22,974 bases of DNA. It comes from a virus. Of this stretch, positions 3,978-20,317 are shown one piece after another (positions within the stretch are counted from its first letter, which is position 1; each line of letters begins with the position of its first letter). The stretch spans positions 1 through 22,974 of IMG/VR virus record IMGVR_UViG_3300031999_000204; one strand, 5' to 3'. The notes under the pieces were generated by a model that ran no database searches, was not told the origin of the DNA, and saw only the letters and a list, made by a program, of their open reading frames with translations. Made by a program: the position numbers and the translations under genes.

Positions 3978-4021
3978 TATAGTCATCCCCTTCGCGCCCT
4001 TCGATTTCTTCCTTCCCTAAA

Positions 4022-4050
4022 ATTATACAGGAAGTTTGCATTTTTGTCAA
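4022..4050 (-). promoter_or_regulatory. Leftward early promoter, consensus sigma70
   Basis: On the minus strand, TTGACA (4050-4045) and TATAAT (4027-4022) lie exactly 17 bases apart, a perfect consensus promoter. Transcription would start near 4015, giving an untranslated leader of about 38 bases before the 3977 start. It drives the whole minus-strand operon. Confidence 0.85.
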
Positions 4051-4069
4051 GGGGTATAAAAAAATAACT

Positions 4070-4096
4070 AAACCCGGGGTTTCTCCCGGTTTTTTT
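4070..4096. terminator. Bidirectional terminator between the divergent promoters
   Basis: Left arm AAACC(C)GGGG and right arm CTCCCGGTTT pair with one bulged C around a four-base loop, followed by T7 on the plus strand. On the minus strand the same hairpin is followed by an imperfect T-tract (AGTTATTTTTTT). It lies between the -35 boxes of the back-to-back promoters and would insulate the two arms from each other. Confidence 0.6.
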
Positions 4097-4114
4097 CGTC
4101 GCAAAATATTTTTA

Positions 4115-4129
4115 TCAAGTTTAACTTGA
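4115..4129. promoter_or_regulatory. Perfect 15-bp palindrome overlapping the rightward -35 (candidate operator)
   Basis: TCAAGTT-T-AACTTGA is a perfect 7+1+7 palindrome whose right arm covers the first four bases of the -35 TTGACT (4126-4131). A further CTTGA half-site follows at 4130-4134. Position and symmetry fit a dimeric repressor or activator. No regulator gene was identified in the window. Confidence 0.55.
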
Positions 4130-4154
4130 CTTGAGCCCGGGACTTTCCTATAAT
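4126..4154 (+). promoter_or_regulatory. Rightward promoter, near-consensus sigma70
   Basis: TTGACT (4126-4131) and TATAAT (4149-4154) have a 17-base spacer. The start is predicted at about 4161, the A of the GCTATGGG sequence. It drives the replication genes through the leader at 4161-4290. Confidence 0.85.
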
Positions 4155-4161
4155 TTTGCTA

Positions 4162-4248
4162 TGGGAATTATAGTGCAATCACAAAAGATTTCAACCGCGC
4201 CTTTTTGGCGTCGGTTTTTTTATGCTCTCCGGCCGCCTATAATTCCCA
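4162..4248 (+). promoter_or_regulatory. 12-bp inverted repeat enclosing the leader terminator
   Basis: TGGGAATTATAG (4162-4173), essentially the first bases of the rightward transcript, is perfectly complementary to CTATAATTCCCA (4237-4248), with 63 bases between. A third related copy, CTATAATT at 4148-4155, overlaps the -10. In RNA the 5' end could therefore pair across the terminator and into the loop of the second hairpin, giving alternative folds. Confidence 0.5.
4193..4221 (+). terminator. Intrinsic terminator about 30 bases after the rightward start
   Basis: AACCG-CGCC pairs with GGCG-(T)-CGGTT around a TTTTT loop with one bulge, followed by seven T. It should release an RNA of about 60 bases unless antiterminated. 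Its AACCG...CGGTTTTTT frame resembles the terminator at 6513-6549. Confidence 0.75.
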
Positions 4249-11839: not shown

Positions 11840-11912
11840 AATATTTAAAAAATAGAGAATATGTTTTGACGCAAATAGCATAAATTTAAAAAACAGGAGC
11901 GAGGTGACTAAA

Positions 11913-14369: not shown

Positions 14370-15653
14370 ATGTCTTCACCTACAAGCATTTCAGATTTAG
14401 ACGGTTTATTTAAAATCGTCTACGGGTCGCAAATTATTAATTTGATGCCCGAAGCTTCAAAAGTCGTTCGGATGATCCCGTTCTCGCAGGAAGAGCGGAT
14501 CGGAAAACGTTTCGACCAACCCGTCGCGCTCACTTACGAGCACGGCTTCACTTACGGCGCCCCGGGCGCTGGCGCCTTCTCTCTCCGCGCTTCCATCTCT
14601 ATGAAGATGCAGAACGCGGAAGTCGACGGCTATCAGGGAATTTTGCGCGCACAGATGGACTATGAGACCGCCGCCAAAGCGGTCGCAGGTGGCGCGAAGG
14701 CCTTCAAAAAAGCGACTCAATTGCAGGTCGAGAATATGATGGAATCCGGCACGAAACGCATCGAGCTCGCTTGCCTTTACGGACAGAGCGGACTCGGCAA
14801 GACCGCGTCCAGCGTCAACACCGACACCACGACAACCGTGTTGCAGATCAGCACGGCGAGCTGGGCGACCGGGATTTGGTCAGGGATGGAAAATTGCGGG
14901 CTTAATTTCTTCGCCGCAAACGGCACCATCGTTAGCTCCGGCGCCGATGCCATTTTCTACATTCAGTCAGTCGATGTAGACAATCGCAAACTCACCGTCA
15001 CGGGCACAATTACCGGGATCACAGCTCTCGACATCGCGGCTGGTTCTGGCGCTCTCGACATTTATTTCGACACCGCTCGCACGGGCGCGACTTCGTGGAA
15101 TGAGATGGTCGGGATCGACAAAATTATCACTAACACCGGGATTCTATTCAACATCGATGCGGCAACCTACAACCTATGGAAAGGTAATACATATTCCAAT
15201 TCCGGCGCCGCATTGACACTCGGAAAAATTCTCTCCGCCATCGCCTTGCCAGTCGGCCGCGGACTGAATGAAAAAGTCGTCGTGTTGTTAAACGACAGAA
15301 CGTGGGCGAATGTCGCCAACGATCAAGCCGCTCTCCGCAAATACGATGCCTCGTATTCCAGCGAAGAGATCAAAAACGGCGCGCGCGCGATTCGTTTCTA
15401 CTCTCAGAACGGAGAGATCGAATTACAACCGTACAACTGTATCAAAGAAGGCGAGTCGTTCGTCTTCCCCCCGAAACGGTTAAAACGTATCGGAGCGCAG
15501 GATATTTCCTTCAACTCCCTCGGAGTCGAAGGTCGCATTTTCCGCGAGCTTTCCGATAACGCTGGGTTTGAATACAGGTTATACACCGATCAGAGCATTT
15601 TTTGCGAGACCCCCGCGAAAATGATGAAGATAACTTCAATAGTAAACAGCTGA
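14370..15653 (+). CDS. Major capsid protein
   Basis: A 427-residue protein with a strong AAAAGGAGAAAAATTT ribosome site. The N-terminal part contains segments typical of the P22/HK97-fold coat family ('SKVVRMIPFSQEERIGKRFDQPVAL', 'GFTYGAPG', 'GGAKAFKKATQLQVENMMES'). A beta-rich Ser/Thr/Gly insertion spans about 150-245. The C-terminal part has 'NEKVVVLLNDRTWANVANDQAALRKYDASY' and 'IELQPYNCIKEGESFVFPPK', as in the A-domain of coat proteins. It follows the scaffold, and the upstream palindrome and ribosome site suggest high expression. The GC-rich, codon-biased sequence fits an abundant protein. The family subtype is inferred. Confidence 0.85.
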   Translation: MSSPTSISDLDGLFKIVYGSQIINLMPEASKVVRMIPFSQEERIGKRFDQPVALTYEHGFTYGAPGAGAFSLRASISMKMQNAEVDGYQGILRAQMDYETAAKAVAGGAKAFKKATQLQVENMMESGTKRIELACLYGQSGLGKTASSVNTDTTTTVLQISTASWATGIWSGMENCGLNFFAANGTIVSSGADAIFYIQSVDVDNRKLTVTGTITGITALDIAAGSGALDIYFDTARTGATSWNEMVGIDKIITNTGILFNIDAATYNLWKGNTYSNSGAALTLGKILSAIALPVGRGLNEKVVVLLNDRTWANVANDQAALRKYDASYSSEEIKNGARAIRFYSQNGEIELQPYNCIKEGESFVFPPKRLKRIGAQDISFNSLGVEGRIFRELSDNAGFEYRLYTDQSIFCETPAKMMKITSIVNS

Positions 15654-15666
15654 AAATTGTAAATAA

Positions 15667-15695
15667 TTGACAATGTACTAAATCCTTTGTACAAT
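15667..15695 (+). promoter_or_regulatory. Dedicated promoter of the HNH endonuclease gene
   Basis: TTGACA (15667-15672) and TACAAT (15690-15695) have a 17-base spacer, starting 14 bases after the capsid stop. The predicted start is near 15702. The -10 lies inside the left arm of the hairpin at 15684-15717, so its own transcript lacks that arm. Confidence 0.75.
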
Positions 15696-15717
15696 GGAGA
15701 AATCCGTTGTACAAAGG
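15684..15717 (+). promoter_or_regulatory. Hairpin that would mask the HNH ribosome site in read-through RNA
   Basis: CCTTTGTACAA (15684-15694) and TTGTACAAAGG (15707-15717) are perfect 11-bp arms with a 12-base loop. The right arm contains the first five bases of the AAAGGAGG ribosome site (15713-15720). Both arms carry the palindrome TTGTACAA, which could also bind a regulator on DNA. Confidence 0.7.
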
Positions 15718-15724
15718 AGGCGGT

Positions 15725-16177
15725 ATGAATCCAATAGAAAACGCAAAATTAAATGAGCAAACAGGTTGTTTTGATTGGCAGGGAAGATTGTGGAATCACG
15801 GTTACGGATATTATAAAAATCATCAACTTGCGCATCGTGTTTCGTACAAAATTAATGTCGGAATAATTCCTGAAGGATTGTGTGTCTTACATAAATGCGA
15901 CAACAGAAAATGCGTTAATCCGGAGCATTTGTTTTTAGGAACGAAAGAAGAAAATAATCGTGATTGTGAGAAAAAAGGACGGAGACCGCATAGATCGTGT
16001 TTTATTGCTAGTGAAAAAGTAAAAGAAAAAGCGAAGTTAATGGGATTGTCAAATATTGGAAGAGTTCATACGGATGAATCAAAAAAAAATATGGCTCTTT
16101 CAAGATTAGGTAAACCCAGAGGGAAATATAAACCTCAAATTAGATTATGTCAAAAATGTTTGCAATCAATTAATTAA
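15725..16177 (+). CDS. Free-standing HNH homing endonuclease with NUMOD3-like motif
   Basis: A 150-residue protein with the HNH_3-type core 'HRVSYKINVGIIPEGLCVLHKCDNRKCVNPEHLFLGT' (residues about 39-75), in which His57 is the likely catalytic His and CxxxxC and Asn/His residues set the fold. A NUMOD3-like DNA-binding element follows, 'GRVHTDESKKNMALSRLGKPRG' (about 114-135). A CxxC occurs near the end. Start at ATG 15725 after AAAGGAGG. Base composition differs from its neighbours: two sampled 60-base lines of this gene have 35 and 40 percent GC, against 63 percent in a line of the capsid gene. This suggests a recent arrival. Such genes nick intron- or gene-less alleles in co-infecting phages and spread themselves. 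Confidence 0.88.
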   Translation: MNPIENAKLNEQTGCFDWQGRLWNHGYGYYKNHQLAHRVSYKINVGIIPEGLCVLHKCDNRKCVNPEHLFLGTKEENNRDCEKKGRRPHRSCFIASEKVKEKAKLMGLSNIGRVHTDESKKNMALSRLGKPRGKYKPQIRLCQKCLQSIN

Positions 16178-16186
16178 GTTGTGCCA

Positions 16187-16217
16187 GCCCGGCCGGGTGA
16201 TCCCTCTCCCGGTCGGG
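16187..16217 (+). repeat. Two GC-rich near-identical palindromic units after the HNH gene
   Basis: GCCCGGCCGGGT and TCCCGGTCGGGT occur 20 bases apart, each a self-complementary unit, with a small GTAC-TCA-GTAC hairpin following at 16217-16226. There is no T-run, so this is not a standard terminator. The GC content jumps here from the AT-rich HNH gene, so this may be the right boundary of the inserted segment. Confidence 0.5.
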
Positions 16218-16242
16218 TACTCAGTACACAGGAGCGCGTAAA

Positions 16243-18981
16243 ATGAAAAAATTTTTAATCGGGTTCGTGACGATGTTGGCAATGGGAATCGGGCTCGCAC
16301 GGGCTTATCAAACATACACGATCAATGGCATTCCTTACCTCTTCCCGGACGTCAACGATGAAACTTGGGGACAGCGCGTTACAGATTGGGCGGGCGCCGT
16401 CACGAATGGGATGCTCCAAAAAGCCGGAGGGACATTCACTTTAACAAGCGAGGCATATTTCGGGGCGAATTATGGGCTCCGCGCCGCCTATTTCAAAAGC
16501 AAAAATTTACCCGTCGCATCGACCGGGGCGATCCGGCTTGCCAACGCCGATACAATCCGCTGGCGAAATATCAACAACACGGGAGATTTTATATTTCAAG
16601 TCAACTCCTCAAGTCTTCCAGTTTTTAACGGTTACGTTTTAGGATTTTCAACCGATATTTCTAATACCATATTTTTATCGACGTCCGCTTTGCAATCCAA
16701 TATTGACGCTCTTTATGTCAATGTCTCTTCGACTTATACTGCCTTGAATAATCGCATTGATGCCGCCGCTATTTCTTCCACAACAGCAAACTCCCGGCTC
16801 AATGATCTTGATTTATCAACCGCGGCGATCACGTCCCGCGCCGATGCCGTCGCTATTGCAACCTCAACGATGGTCGACACAACTTCGTCAACTCAAGCGA
16901 AAGCCGGAGGGTTTATCGTGGGAGGAGACTTGACAAGCTCATCGACCGTCCGCTCAAATATGGCGACAACCTCAACGACCGGGGAACGGTTTAATTTCGT
17001 CGCGTATGTCGGGTCCGATACCCCGGCAGAGATCAACATAAAAAACAACGCAACGAGCGGCAATACAAACTCTTATGAGTATTTAAGTTCGAGCGGGATC
17101 GTCGGGAATATCCGTTTTTATGCTCCTTATTCGGGCGCTGGCAATATGGAATATTTCAGATTATCGAATGTGATACTTAATCGGAATCTCGGGGACATCG
17201 CCTCTCAAATGATATTTTGGGGACCGAATGTTAATGGGACTGCTATCCCATTGGGGACGATCGTGTCGATCAAAAACAAGGCGCGCTGGGGAATTAGAGC
17301 GTCAGCCGATCCCGCTTATATTCCGAGCTCGATGTTCGAGCTAATTGATGGTTCAATGACGATCGTCCGCGGAGGCATTAATTTGAGGGAGGCGAGCAAT
17401 CTCCGGGTCGATGGATTATCCGAATTGCTGGCGACGACAAAGATTGGGAGCGCGACGGTTTACGGAACAGTTACGTCAACGTCAGGATTTGTGGGTGATG
17501 GTTCTGGGCTTTATAATCTTCCGGCTCGGCTTCCGCTCGCGCAGGGGTCGACATACTATGCGATTTGGCAAGATGTGTCGAATGCGACCGCGGCGATCAT
17601 TACGCGGGCGGACGGAGCGGCGATTTCTTCAACGACCGCGGTGACACGGATTAGCAATCTCGATCAATCGACAGCCGCAATCACAACCCGGGCGGACGCG
17701 GTGGCAATCGCCACGACAGCGGCAACCGTTCAAAAAATCACGGTTTACAGCGCTGGCGTTTTCGCTGGGAACGTGTCGACAATCAATTTCAATACAAATT
17801 TAAGCGTGTCAGTCACGGGCGGGACGGCGACCGTCAACGCGTCCGGGGGTGGCGGCGGCGGGACGAGCAATGAAATTTATACGCTTATTATTGGGACGTC
17901 TTCGGTCCGAGGGGCGACTATTGTCGGCAACACGCAGGACGCTTTCAATTTCGCGATTTCTTCGGCTTTAACGATGATCGGCGGGACTACTATCCCGATT
18001 TGCATTTACGTCCAGCGCGGGAGTTATACGTTCACGTCACAGGTTTTCGTGCCGTATAATGTCACGATCAAGGGGGAAGATACGGGAGCAGTCTGTTACA
18101 ACAACAACGGGCTTGGAGTTTTTTCTATCGAAGGGCGGGTTACGAATATGGGTTTTGTTTCCCGGGCGTGGACTTATAGCGGGTCGGGAAGGGATCATAT
18201 CATCCAAATGAAATGGCGCGGGAAATTTGATTACAATACTTTCCACGAAGGGAAGGCGTCAAACGGCGGGCAAACAGTTAATATTGTCATTTCAGTTAAT
18301 GGTTCATCATTCACCACAGTTTCAAACAATGAGTTTTTGAATTTTACAGAAAATTCTTATACGCTTTACGGGCTAACTCACGATGCGTCTTTGTCTGTTT
18401 CAAATGCCAACAACAACGTATTTACGTTTAACAAAATAGTCTTTTCCGAATCCACGGCGGCGGGTTATGTTTGTTTTATTTATAGCGGGAACAACAACAA
18501 GATGGAATACAACGATATTTATCAAAATAGAAAATCAAACATATTGATGAACGTGATGGCTTATTCATTGACGAGCAATTGTTTCAATAATTCATTTTCT
18601 TATAATAGAGTGTCAATGGATTTAAATTCAACGGACGGAAGCGGATTTGCTCTATTTAGCCCAGACTTTTATGGTCAAGGGATTTCCACGGGGACTCAAA
18701 TTGTCGGCAATCAAATAACATTGCGGGTCCCCAGCGCTGGAAACAACTTAATCACTTTGCAGACTGATGGTTCTGGATATGAAGAGGGAATGCTTATCGC
18801 AGATAATGTGGTTATATCGACAACGGCTGGCGCCGGGAATTTTGTCACCGTAAATTCTGGAGCGCGCCGGACGTTAATTAAAAATAATACCGTGCGCGGG
18901 ATGGGCGGATTTGTAAGTGACAGCGGCACTCAAACGATCTATACAAATAAAAATAATGATCTGAATAATATCGCTCAATAA
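16243..18981 (+). CDS. Tail fibre/tailspike protein with signal peptide and C-terminal beta-helix
   Basis: A 912-residue protein starting after CAGGAGCGCGTAAA. The N-terminus is a signal peptide (KK, hydrophobic FLIGFVTMLAMGIGL, cut after ARA at residue 21). Residues about 22-120 form a virion-attachment-like beta region (YTINGIPYLFPDV; TGAIRLANADTIRWRN). A Ser/Thr/Ala coiled motif occurs twice, 'AAISSTTANSRLNDLDLSTAA' near 185 and 'AAISSTTAVTRISNLDQSTAA' near 455, as in trimeric fibre shafts. A Gly-rich linker SGGGGGG near 545 precedes a right-handed parallel beta-helix (570-900, repeated short Asn-rich turns such as 'SNNEFLNF' and 'NNNKMEYNDIY'), typical of tailspike polysaccharide-binding or -cleaving domains. 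No catalytic triad was identified. Receptor-binding role is inferred. Confidence 0.8.
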   Translation: MKKFLIGFVTMLAMGIGLARAYQTYTINGIPYLFPDVNDETWGQRVTDWAGAVTNGMLQKAGGTFTLTSEAYFGANYGLRAAYFKSKNLPVASTGAIRLANADTIRWRNINNTGDFIFQVNSSSLPVFNGYVLGFSTDISNTIFLSTSALQSNIDALYVNVSSTYTALNNRIDAAAISSTTANSRLNDLDLSTAAITSRADAVAIATSTMVDTTSSTQAKAGGFIVGGDLTSSSTVRSNMATTSTTGERFNFVAYVGSDTPAEINIKNNATSGNTNSYEYLSSSGIVGNIRFYAPYSGAGNMEYFRLSNVILNRNLGDIASQMIFWGPNVNGTAIPLGTIVSIKNKARWGIRASADPAYIPSSMFELIDGSMTIVRGGINLREASNLRVDGLSELLATTKIGSATVYGTVTSTSGFVGDGSGLYNLPARLPLAQGSTYYAIWQDVSNATAAIITRADGAAISSTTAVTRISNLDQSTAAITTRADAVAIATTAATVQKITVYSAGVFAGNVSTINFNTNLSVSVTGGTATVNASGGGGGGTSNEIYTLIIGTSSVRGATIVGNTQDAFNFAISSALTMIGGTTIPICIYVQRGSYTFTSQVFVPYNVTIKGEDTGAVCYNNNGLGVFSIEGRVTNMGFVSRAWTYSGSGRDHIIQMKWRGKFDYNTFHEGKASNGGQTVNIVISVNGSSFTTVSNNEFLNFTENSYTLYGLTHDASLSVSNANNNVFTFNKIVFSESTAAGYVCFIYSGNNNKMEYNDIYQNRKSNILMNVMAYSLTSNCFNNSFSYNRVSMDLNSTDGSGFALFSPDFYGQGISTGTQIVGNQITLRVPSAGNNLITLQTDGSGYEEGMLIADNVVISTTAGAGNFVTVNSGARRTLIKNNTVRGMGGFVSDSGTQTIYTNKNNDLNNIAQ

Positions 18982-18992
18982 AGGAGTTCAAG

Positions 18993-19400
18993 ATGAAATA
19001 TTTTATATCAACATTTTTAATGTTTGGGTTGGCGGGCGGATTGATGGCGACGGAAGCCCGGGTCGTTGACAATTCCGTTGATTTTGCAAAGGTGAAGGTC
19101 GTATTAAATGGCTCCGATTATTTTTTCTACAACAAAAATAAAGGCGATAATTTTTACGATCAGGTGAACGTCGGCACCAATACGGCGGTTCTCACCTATC
19201 CGACGCCGACAGCCGATGAAATTAATTTGTCAACGTGCGTTCTTTATGGGTTCAGCGGGCTGGATGATTGGAAACAATGCAAAAAAGGATTTTTAAACAA
19301 AAAAATCAAAGAGTTAAAAGATAATGACGACGACCTTATCATTGTCGACGTTGACTCCCGGATCGCGTGGCTCCGGGATTATCGGCAGGCGCACAGATGA
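18993..19400 (+). CDS. Exported protein, first of two tandem paralogues, 135 aa
   Basis: Starts after AAAGGAGTTCAAG. Residues 1-19 (MKYFISTFLMFGLAGGLMA) are a signal peptide with a likely cut before TEA. The mature 116 residues share with the next gene 'VDFAKVKVVLNGS', 'TYPTPTADEINLSTC', 'KKIKELKDNDDD' and 'IVDVDSRIAWLR'. One Cys is conserved between the two (STC), a second (QCKK) is not. No family is recognised. The two genes lie between the tailspike and the lysis genes and probably act in the periplasm or on the cell surface, for example in superinfection exclusion or tail-associated functions, but nothing proves this. Confidence 0.75.
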   Translation: MKYFISTFLMFGLAGGLMATEARVVDNSVDFAKVKVVLNGSDYFFYNKNKGDNFYDQVNVGTNTAVLTYPTPTADEINLSTCVLYGFSGLDDWKQCKKGFLNKKIKELKDNDDDLIIVDVDSRIAWLRDYRQAHR

Positions 19401-19804
19401 AATATTTAATCGCGCTTTTTCTCATTTTTCCCGCCGGGCTCTTGAATGCGACCGAATATAAGGTCGCAAATTATCAAGTTAAATTTGCAAAAGTAAAATT
19501 GATTTTGAATGGTGGCTCCCCGGAGTTTTATTTCAGTTTAACGAAAGGCAATGATCGATATGACGATTACGTTTCCGTTGCGACGAACGTCGTGACGCGG
19601 ACTTTTCCGACGCCAACATCCGACGAAATTAATTTATCAACGTGCGCTTATCGCTGGTATTCCGACGCGGAATTTAAGGCGGCAAAAAAAGGGTATGTTA
19701 CGTCGAAGATCAAAGAATTAAAAGACAACCGGGACGACGAAGAGATCGTTGATTTTAAAGCCCGGGTCAACTGGCTCAGATTGTGGAAAATATTAAACCC
19801 GTGA
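19397..19804 (+). CDS. Exported protein, second tandem paralogue, 135 aa
   Basis: Begins at ATG 19397 overlapping the stop of its paralogue (ATGA). Residues 1-18 (MKYLIALFLIFPAGLLNA) are a signal peptide with a cut before TEY. It aligns with the previous protein over the whole length: 'VKFAKVKLILNGG', 'FPTPTSDEINLSTC', 'SKIKELKDNRDDEEIVDF' and 'RVNWLRLWK'. Identical length and order argue for a tandem gene duplication followed by divergence, most strongly in the region after the signal peptide and in the middle loop. It is coupled to the membrane protein gene downstream by a GTGA overlap. Confidence 0.75.
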   Translation: MKYLIALFLIFPAGLLNATEYKVANYQVKFAKVKLILNGGSPEFYFSLTKGNDRYDDYVSVATNVVTRTFPTPTSDEINLSTCAYRWYSDAEFKAAKKGYVTSKIKELKDNRDDEEIVDFKARVNWLRLWKILNP

Positions 19805-20179: not shown

Positions 20180-20317
20180 TTGCAGATTATCGATGTTATC
20201 GATGCGAGCGATTTTTGTGGGATTATGAGGCCGGATTATATTTTACCGCGCAAGGGAGCATCTTACATTTTCATAAATGCGGATGCCCCCTTGAGCAATG
20301 GGAGATCAAATGGGTGA
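20180..20317 (+). CDS. Possible small protein between membrane genes and endolysin, 45 aa
   Basis: TTG 20180 with GGAGA about eight bases upstream opens a frame of 45 residues (MQIIDVIDASDFCGIMRPDY, then a short beta-like end) that overlaps the endolysin start by eight bases. The first residues are not hydrophobic enough for a membrane segment. The call rests on spacing, and a chance frame is possible. Confidence 0.35.
   Translation: MQIIDVIDASDFCGIMRPDYILPRKGASYIFINADAPLSNGRSNG

Follow-up and report, generated by a model that had tools for sequence, protein, structure and literature searches.

A candidate self-unmasking leader in front of an HNH endonuclease gene that follows the capsid gene of a phage

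The stretch of DNA analysed here (the window, a virus record of 22,974 bases) carries a gene for an HNH endonuclease between those for the major capsid protein and for a 912-aa protein (Table 1). The endonuclease belongs to the HNH_3 family (PF13392; 49.4 bits against a curated cut-off of 24.8), and the H-N-H motif LHKCDNRKCVNPEHL is intact in its translation. Its closest HNH homologs share 53-58% identity with it across about 80 aa, and no solved structures were found for it by sequence. Terminase, portal and capsid genes of the window have remote relatives only, the closest phage listed having a Silvanigrella host; the capsid protein is 23% identical to that of a Silvanigrella phage at 96% coverage, and no match to it was found in IMG/VR.

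Table 1. Features of the HNH locus, and promoters predicted at other HNH genes with the same leader plan
Feature	Position	Strand	Sequence or evidence
Gene for the major capsid (head) protein, 5' of the HNH module	14370..15653	+	phrog_14242 major head protein, E 3.6e-7
AT-rich inserted module (leader and HNH gene; probable insertion)	15654..16177	+	GC 0.33-0.34
-35 element (predicted)	15667..15672	+	TTGACA, consensus match
Left arm of masking hairpin, near-palindrome	15683..15698	+	TCCTTTGTACAATGGA
-10 element (predicted), within left arm	15690..15695	+	TACAAT, consensus match
Right arm of masking hairpin, near-palindrome, overlaps ribosome site	15703..15718	+	TCCGTTGTACAAAGGA
Ribosome-binding site	15713..15720	+	AAAGGAGG; masked in predicted read-through RNA
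HNH_3 endonuclease gene, 150 aa	15725..16177	+	ATG 15725, stop 16175-16177; Pfam HNH_3 E 3.4e-13; phrog_1872 endonuclease E 2.9e-29
Downstream gene, 912 aa, right-hand neighbour of insertion	16243..18981	+	no family match
L024 promoter			TTGACA-17-TAAGAT
L034 promoter			TTGCTT-17-TATTAT
L031 promoter			TTTACA-17-TAATCT; TTCG loop
L073 promoter			TTGCTT-18-TATCAT
L082 promoter			TTGAAT-17-TATAAT
L356 promoter			ATGAGT-18-TATAAT
L326-L346 family promoter			TTGACA-18-CATACT or TATACT

Rfam gave no match of any kind, group I introns included, at the gathering threshold in the whole window, and the HNH gene sits between two complete ORFs. It is free-standing and probably mobile, having entered the space that separates the capsid gene from the 912-aa gene. 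Base composition fits insertion: the module has a GC of 0.33-0.34, whereas the capsid gene has 0.52 and the spacer just 3' of the module 0.65, a difference that points to joint arrival of leader and gene. An empty-site relative was sought via relatives of the capsid and terminase and was not found, the search yielding one remote phage only. Directly 3' of the HNH stop codon, at 16188-16217, lies a G+C-rich inverted repeat without a T run (CCCGGCCGGG-N10-CCCGGTCGGG), which may be the original capsid 3' element, displaced by the insertion. The segment GTACAAAGGAGGCG (15709-15722), before the HNH gene, resembles GTACACAGGAGCGCG (16224-16238), before the downstream gene, with a score of 18 compared with 11.0 (sd 1.9) for shuffles, a level reached by 0.4% of them; copying of a ribosome-site segment at insertion is possible.

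The first-pass annotation had described 11-base perfect inverted arms in the leader, the right one covering part of the ribosome site. Both are present exactly (CCTTTGTACAA at 15684-15694 and TTGTACAAAGG at 15707-15717), and the full stem is longer, with 16 pairs, one of them U-G, around a 4-base loop at 15699-15702. This is the longest inverted repeat within 60 nt in the window. Its right arm spans, and pairs, the AAAGGA of the ribosome site, leaving the final GG outside the stem, and RNA folding adds a second helix, in which GUACU 5' of the stem pairs with GGUAU beside the AUG. The fold predicted for 15653-15760 has an energy of -30.5 kcal/mol (z -5.7) that none of 200 shuffles matches. Arm length alone is only moderately unlikely, since the 12-base perfect core of the stem is equalled in 2 of 40 whole-window shuffles.

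The left arm also contains the -10 box of a TTGACA-17-TACAAT promoter, as had been proposed; the match to consensus is 11/12, ranking 4th among 45,868 positions on both strands. This predicted promoter is a consensus match of sigma70 type only. Because the -10 box lies within the left arm, a start at the usual 7-base distance is predicted near 15702, the last base of the loop, so that the whole left arm would be absent from the RNA. The leader holds no T4 late-type TATAAATA, nor was a late or middle promoter of T4-type phages found in it; such promoters are a trait of the T4-type examples discussed below rather than of the mechanism. Of sigma70 type, too, are the strongest matches within a divergent region at 4022-4167, which adjoins a replication-initiation-like gene and may be an early control region. 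The 5th best match in the window, TTGACA-17-TATATT at 16153-16125 on the minus strand, lies in antisense orientation within the last part of the HNH gene; an antisense RNA to the HNH mRNA is conceivable, though this gene is AT-rich.

Folding of RNAs with different 5' ends predicts how much the left arm matters. Opening the ribosome site and AUG is predicted to cost 14-16 kcal/mol in RNAs that start at 15500-15667, 11.2 kcal/mol in one that starts at 15684, and 3.9-5.5 kcal/mol in those that start at 15690-15704 (about 5 from 15702). In silico, therefore, read-through RNA hides the ribosome site and promoter RNA lacks the masking arm, which is the behaviour of the I-TevI, segB and mobE kind. 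The energy measure is imperfect when used alone, because the gene at 3986 on the minus strand of the window, tried as a second case, passed it with a shuffle-like fold (z 0.7) and was rejected.

The left arm would thus have two roles, carrying the -10 box as DNA, and pairing with and hiding the ribosome site as RNA. Read-through RNA, presumed to come from the capsid gene, would contain both arms and go untranslated, whereas RNA from the internal promoter would lack the left arm and be translated. We consider it likely that this is a self-unmasking leader, by which synthesis of the nuclease would depend on its own promoter alone and be indifferent to how much capsid RNA is present. Such a switch between masked and unmasked RNA had been suggested in the first-pass annotation; its geometry stands, with folding costs and with relatives of the same plan and co-varying arms behind it, and the switching itself keeps the rank of a prediction. 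Sequence, predicted fold, and enrichment and co-variation in relatives form its observed basis, from which we infer promoter activity, read-through, silencing, timing and homing.

The closest known counterpart is I-TevI, encoded in the td intron of T4. Its masking hairpin has been established by experiment, with read-through RNA hiding the ribosome site (PMC2988022; also PMC3014915), and transcripts that begin at a promoter in or beside the left arm are without this arm and are translated (PMC2988022). Similar arrangements exist at I-TevII, I-TevIII and segB, and mobE of Aeromonas phage Aeh1 is described as a free-standing HNH gene with the same plan and experimental support (PMC2988022). The earlier comparison with I-TevI holds, and extends to I-TevII, I-TevIII, segB and mobE. 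All cases published in these sources are from T4-like phages (PMC2988022, PMC3014915). The mechanism is already known from I-TevI, segB and mobE; the window departs from them in its sigma70-like promoter, in belonging to a non-T4 phage and in its twin-palindrome arms.

Individual examples differ from the window in several ways. I-TevI, I-TevII and I-TevIII are intron-encoded, whereas the window gene is free-standing; I-TevI and I-TevII are GIY-YIG nucleases, whereas the window protein is HNH_3. The promoters of the I-TevI group are T4 middle or late ones known from experiment; that of the window is a sigma70 consensus match, predicted only. Both mobE (an HNH gene) and T4 segB are described as endonuclease genes that stand free among other phage genes and have the hairpin and the promoter, as the window gene does; unlike the window, they belong to T4-type phages and have phage late promoters. 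The T7 gp2.8/gp3.8-type HNH_3 genes of podoviruses encode nucleases of the same family as the window protein, but in most cases they overlap the gene before them or directly adjoin it, without such a leader, a promoter-less cassette strategy. The predicted promoter of the window is of sigma70 type and not a phage late or middle one; if the divergent region at 4022-4167 is indeed an early control region, expression of the nuclease would be early or constant, with no contribution from late capsid RNA, whereas in T4 the timing of I-TevI is the opposite.

Searches yielded neither a leader homologous to that of the window nor a close relative of the phage. Other HNH genes of uncultured phages nevertheless have leaders built on this plan, with arms of unrelated sequence (loci L024, L020/L034, L031, L073, L082 and L356 and the L326-L346 family; Table 1) and fold z values of -2.7 to -5.9. 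Several of these leaders use the -10 box itself as the pairing partner of the ribosome site, the spacer or the start codon. The L326-L346 family has a 13-pair stem in which 96.6% of cells are paired and 5 of the 13 pairs show compensatory change; there are 9 such cells, compared with 2.3 in shuffles (0/500), and slid controls give 0-2 pairs with compensatory change. Tolerance of G-U pairs points to action of this stem by RNA pairing. We take these alignments to show that leaders of such kind are under selection for RNA pairing, which is not evidence for the window's own copy. A 201-aa protein at L216:1116-1721, endonuclease-like by eye and without a significant Pfam match, is likewise preceded by a masking hairpin, a very strong one (z of the fold -6.9), with the promoter TTGTAA-17-TAGGGT.

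The arms of the window hairpin have another property, which had been noticed early as twin palindromes: each reads TCCNTTGTACAANGGA and is self-symmetric in 14 of 16 positions (7/8), the two copies lying 20 bp apart. Self-symmetry in ten other leaders examined is only 4-6 of 8. The two near-identical 16-bp palindromes could be operators, bound by a dimeric repressor or else by the nuclease, with the hairpin a by-product of their adjacency. Besides a self-symmetry that none of the ten other leaders reaches, this reading is favoured by the position of the first palindrome over the -10 box, by the restriction of exact TTGTACAA to these two palindromes within the window, and by the established precedent of I-TevI, which represses its own late promoter by way of an overlapping operator (PMC2988022). 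Yet about 11 such palindromes occur per 23 kb, near chance, so that one palindromic arm is not very rare, and no repressor gene was identified; moreover, relatives keep the hairpin without a palindrome, and their arms co-vary instead of staying fixed. A search of viral contigs for the palindrome gave 117 stretches, none doubled among the matches listed, which is about chance level. We regard operator control as the sole function of the arms as unlikely. A putative operator role is compatible with RNA masking, and the two can coexist.

A purely fortuitous leader, in which inserted AT-rich DNA contains both the hairpin and a good match to a promoter by coincidence, with low-level translation from the upstream operon, would be in keeping with the G+C content of the segment (33%), which raises promoter-like matches, with the perfect-arm length attained in whole-window shuffles and with the absence of the plan from most HNH genes. 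When 15654-15712 was shuffled with the ribosome site fixed in place, however, an equally strong hairpin arose in 3 of 1500 leaders, an equally strong promoter in 0 of 3000, and both together in 0 of 3000; a weaker version of the pair (promoter at least 8, masking gain at least 5 kcal) arose in 19 of 3000. With recurrence and co-variation of the plan in relatives, this makes coincidence very improbable. The hairpin lies 30 nt past the capsid stop codon, but that it serves mainly as a terminator, processing element or stabilising 3' hairpin of the capsid mRNA is less credible still, as it has no T run, is absent from the listing of intrinsic terminators on both strands, and has an equally eligible rival in the separate G+C-rich hairpin at 16188-16217.

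The frequency of the self-unmasking plan was assessed in viral contigs. A crude accessibility measure barely separated HNH genes from controls (median 0.41 vs 0.44) and was replaced by the two thresholds of the weaker version above, set before later loci were added. They are passed by 7/53 HNH clusters and 4/586 other clusters, in a sample of loci chosen partly because of earlier hits; the passing HNH clusters are partly related, which makes p-values too small. With fold z of -3 or below as a further requirement, 6 HNH clusters remain (5 and the window, whose z is -6.7), against 2/586 others, namely an antisense ORF over the L335 hairpin and L353, which is in fact another HNH_3 gene. As L020/L034, L031, L073 and L082 share one protein subfamily, about four independent HNH lineages are represented. 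Passing genes all lie in gaps of at least 48 nt, and none of the HNH genes that abut the upstream gene passes. Among the viral and genome loci added last, the passing fraction is 1/23 for HNH and 1/131 for the rest, an excess that is not significant. The plan was found in none of 18 cultured-phage HNH genes and in none of 60 chromosomal or prophage HNH_3 genes, the latter limiting any claim of generality; among free-standing HNH genes of phages it thus recurs, but in a minority.

The same scan picked an IS200-type transposase gene, L380:5425 (Y1_Tnp E 1.4e-37), with an uncertain start codon. In tnpA of the IS200/IS605 family, which encodes a transposase rather than an HNH protein, a leader hairpin over the ribosome site holds down translation, and known controls include antisense RNA.

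Once a mobile nuclease gene has entered a structural operon with strong transcription, bulk production of the nuclease must be avoided, and a leader combining promoter and mask would solve this in fewer than 60 bases that move with the gene. The window and its relatives suggest wider use of this device beyond T4-like phages, with host-type promoters, and a -10 box complementary to a ribosome site or start codon is a signature by which more cases can be sought. Only tentatively can one go further and propose that free-standing HNH genes of many non-T4 phages have arrived again and again at the same route to operon independence, with the -10 box placed inside the arm that masks the ribosome site, and that 36 bases of the window carry three codes at once, those of a promoter, an RNA mask and a paired operator for a repressor.

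Elsewhere in the window, a Cas4-domain exonuclease-like protein is encoded at 164-1171 on the minus strand (phrog_1990 E 3.7e-17). ORFs of the structural region at 11904, 16243, 18993 and 19367 begin with signal-peptide-like N-terminal stretches, and those at 18993-19400 and 19367-19804 are apparent tandem paralogues. A stable hairpin at 20250-20310 (z -4.0) stands immediately 5' of an M15-type endolysin gene, the start codon of which is uncertain.
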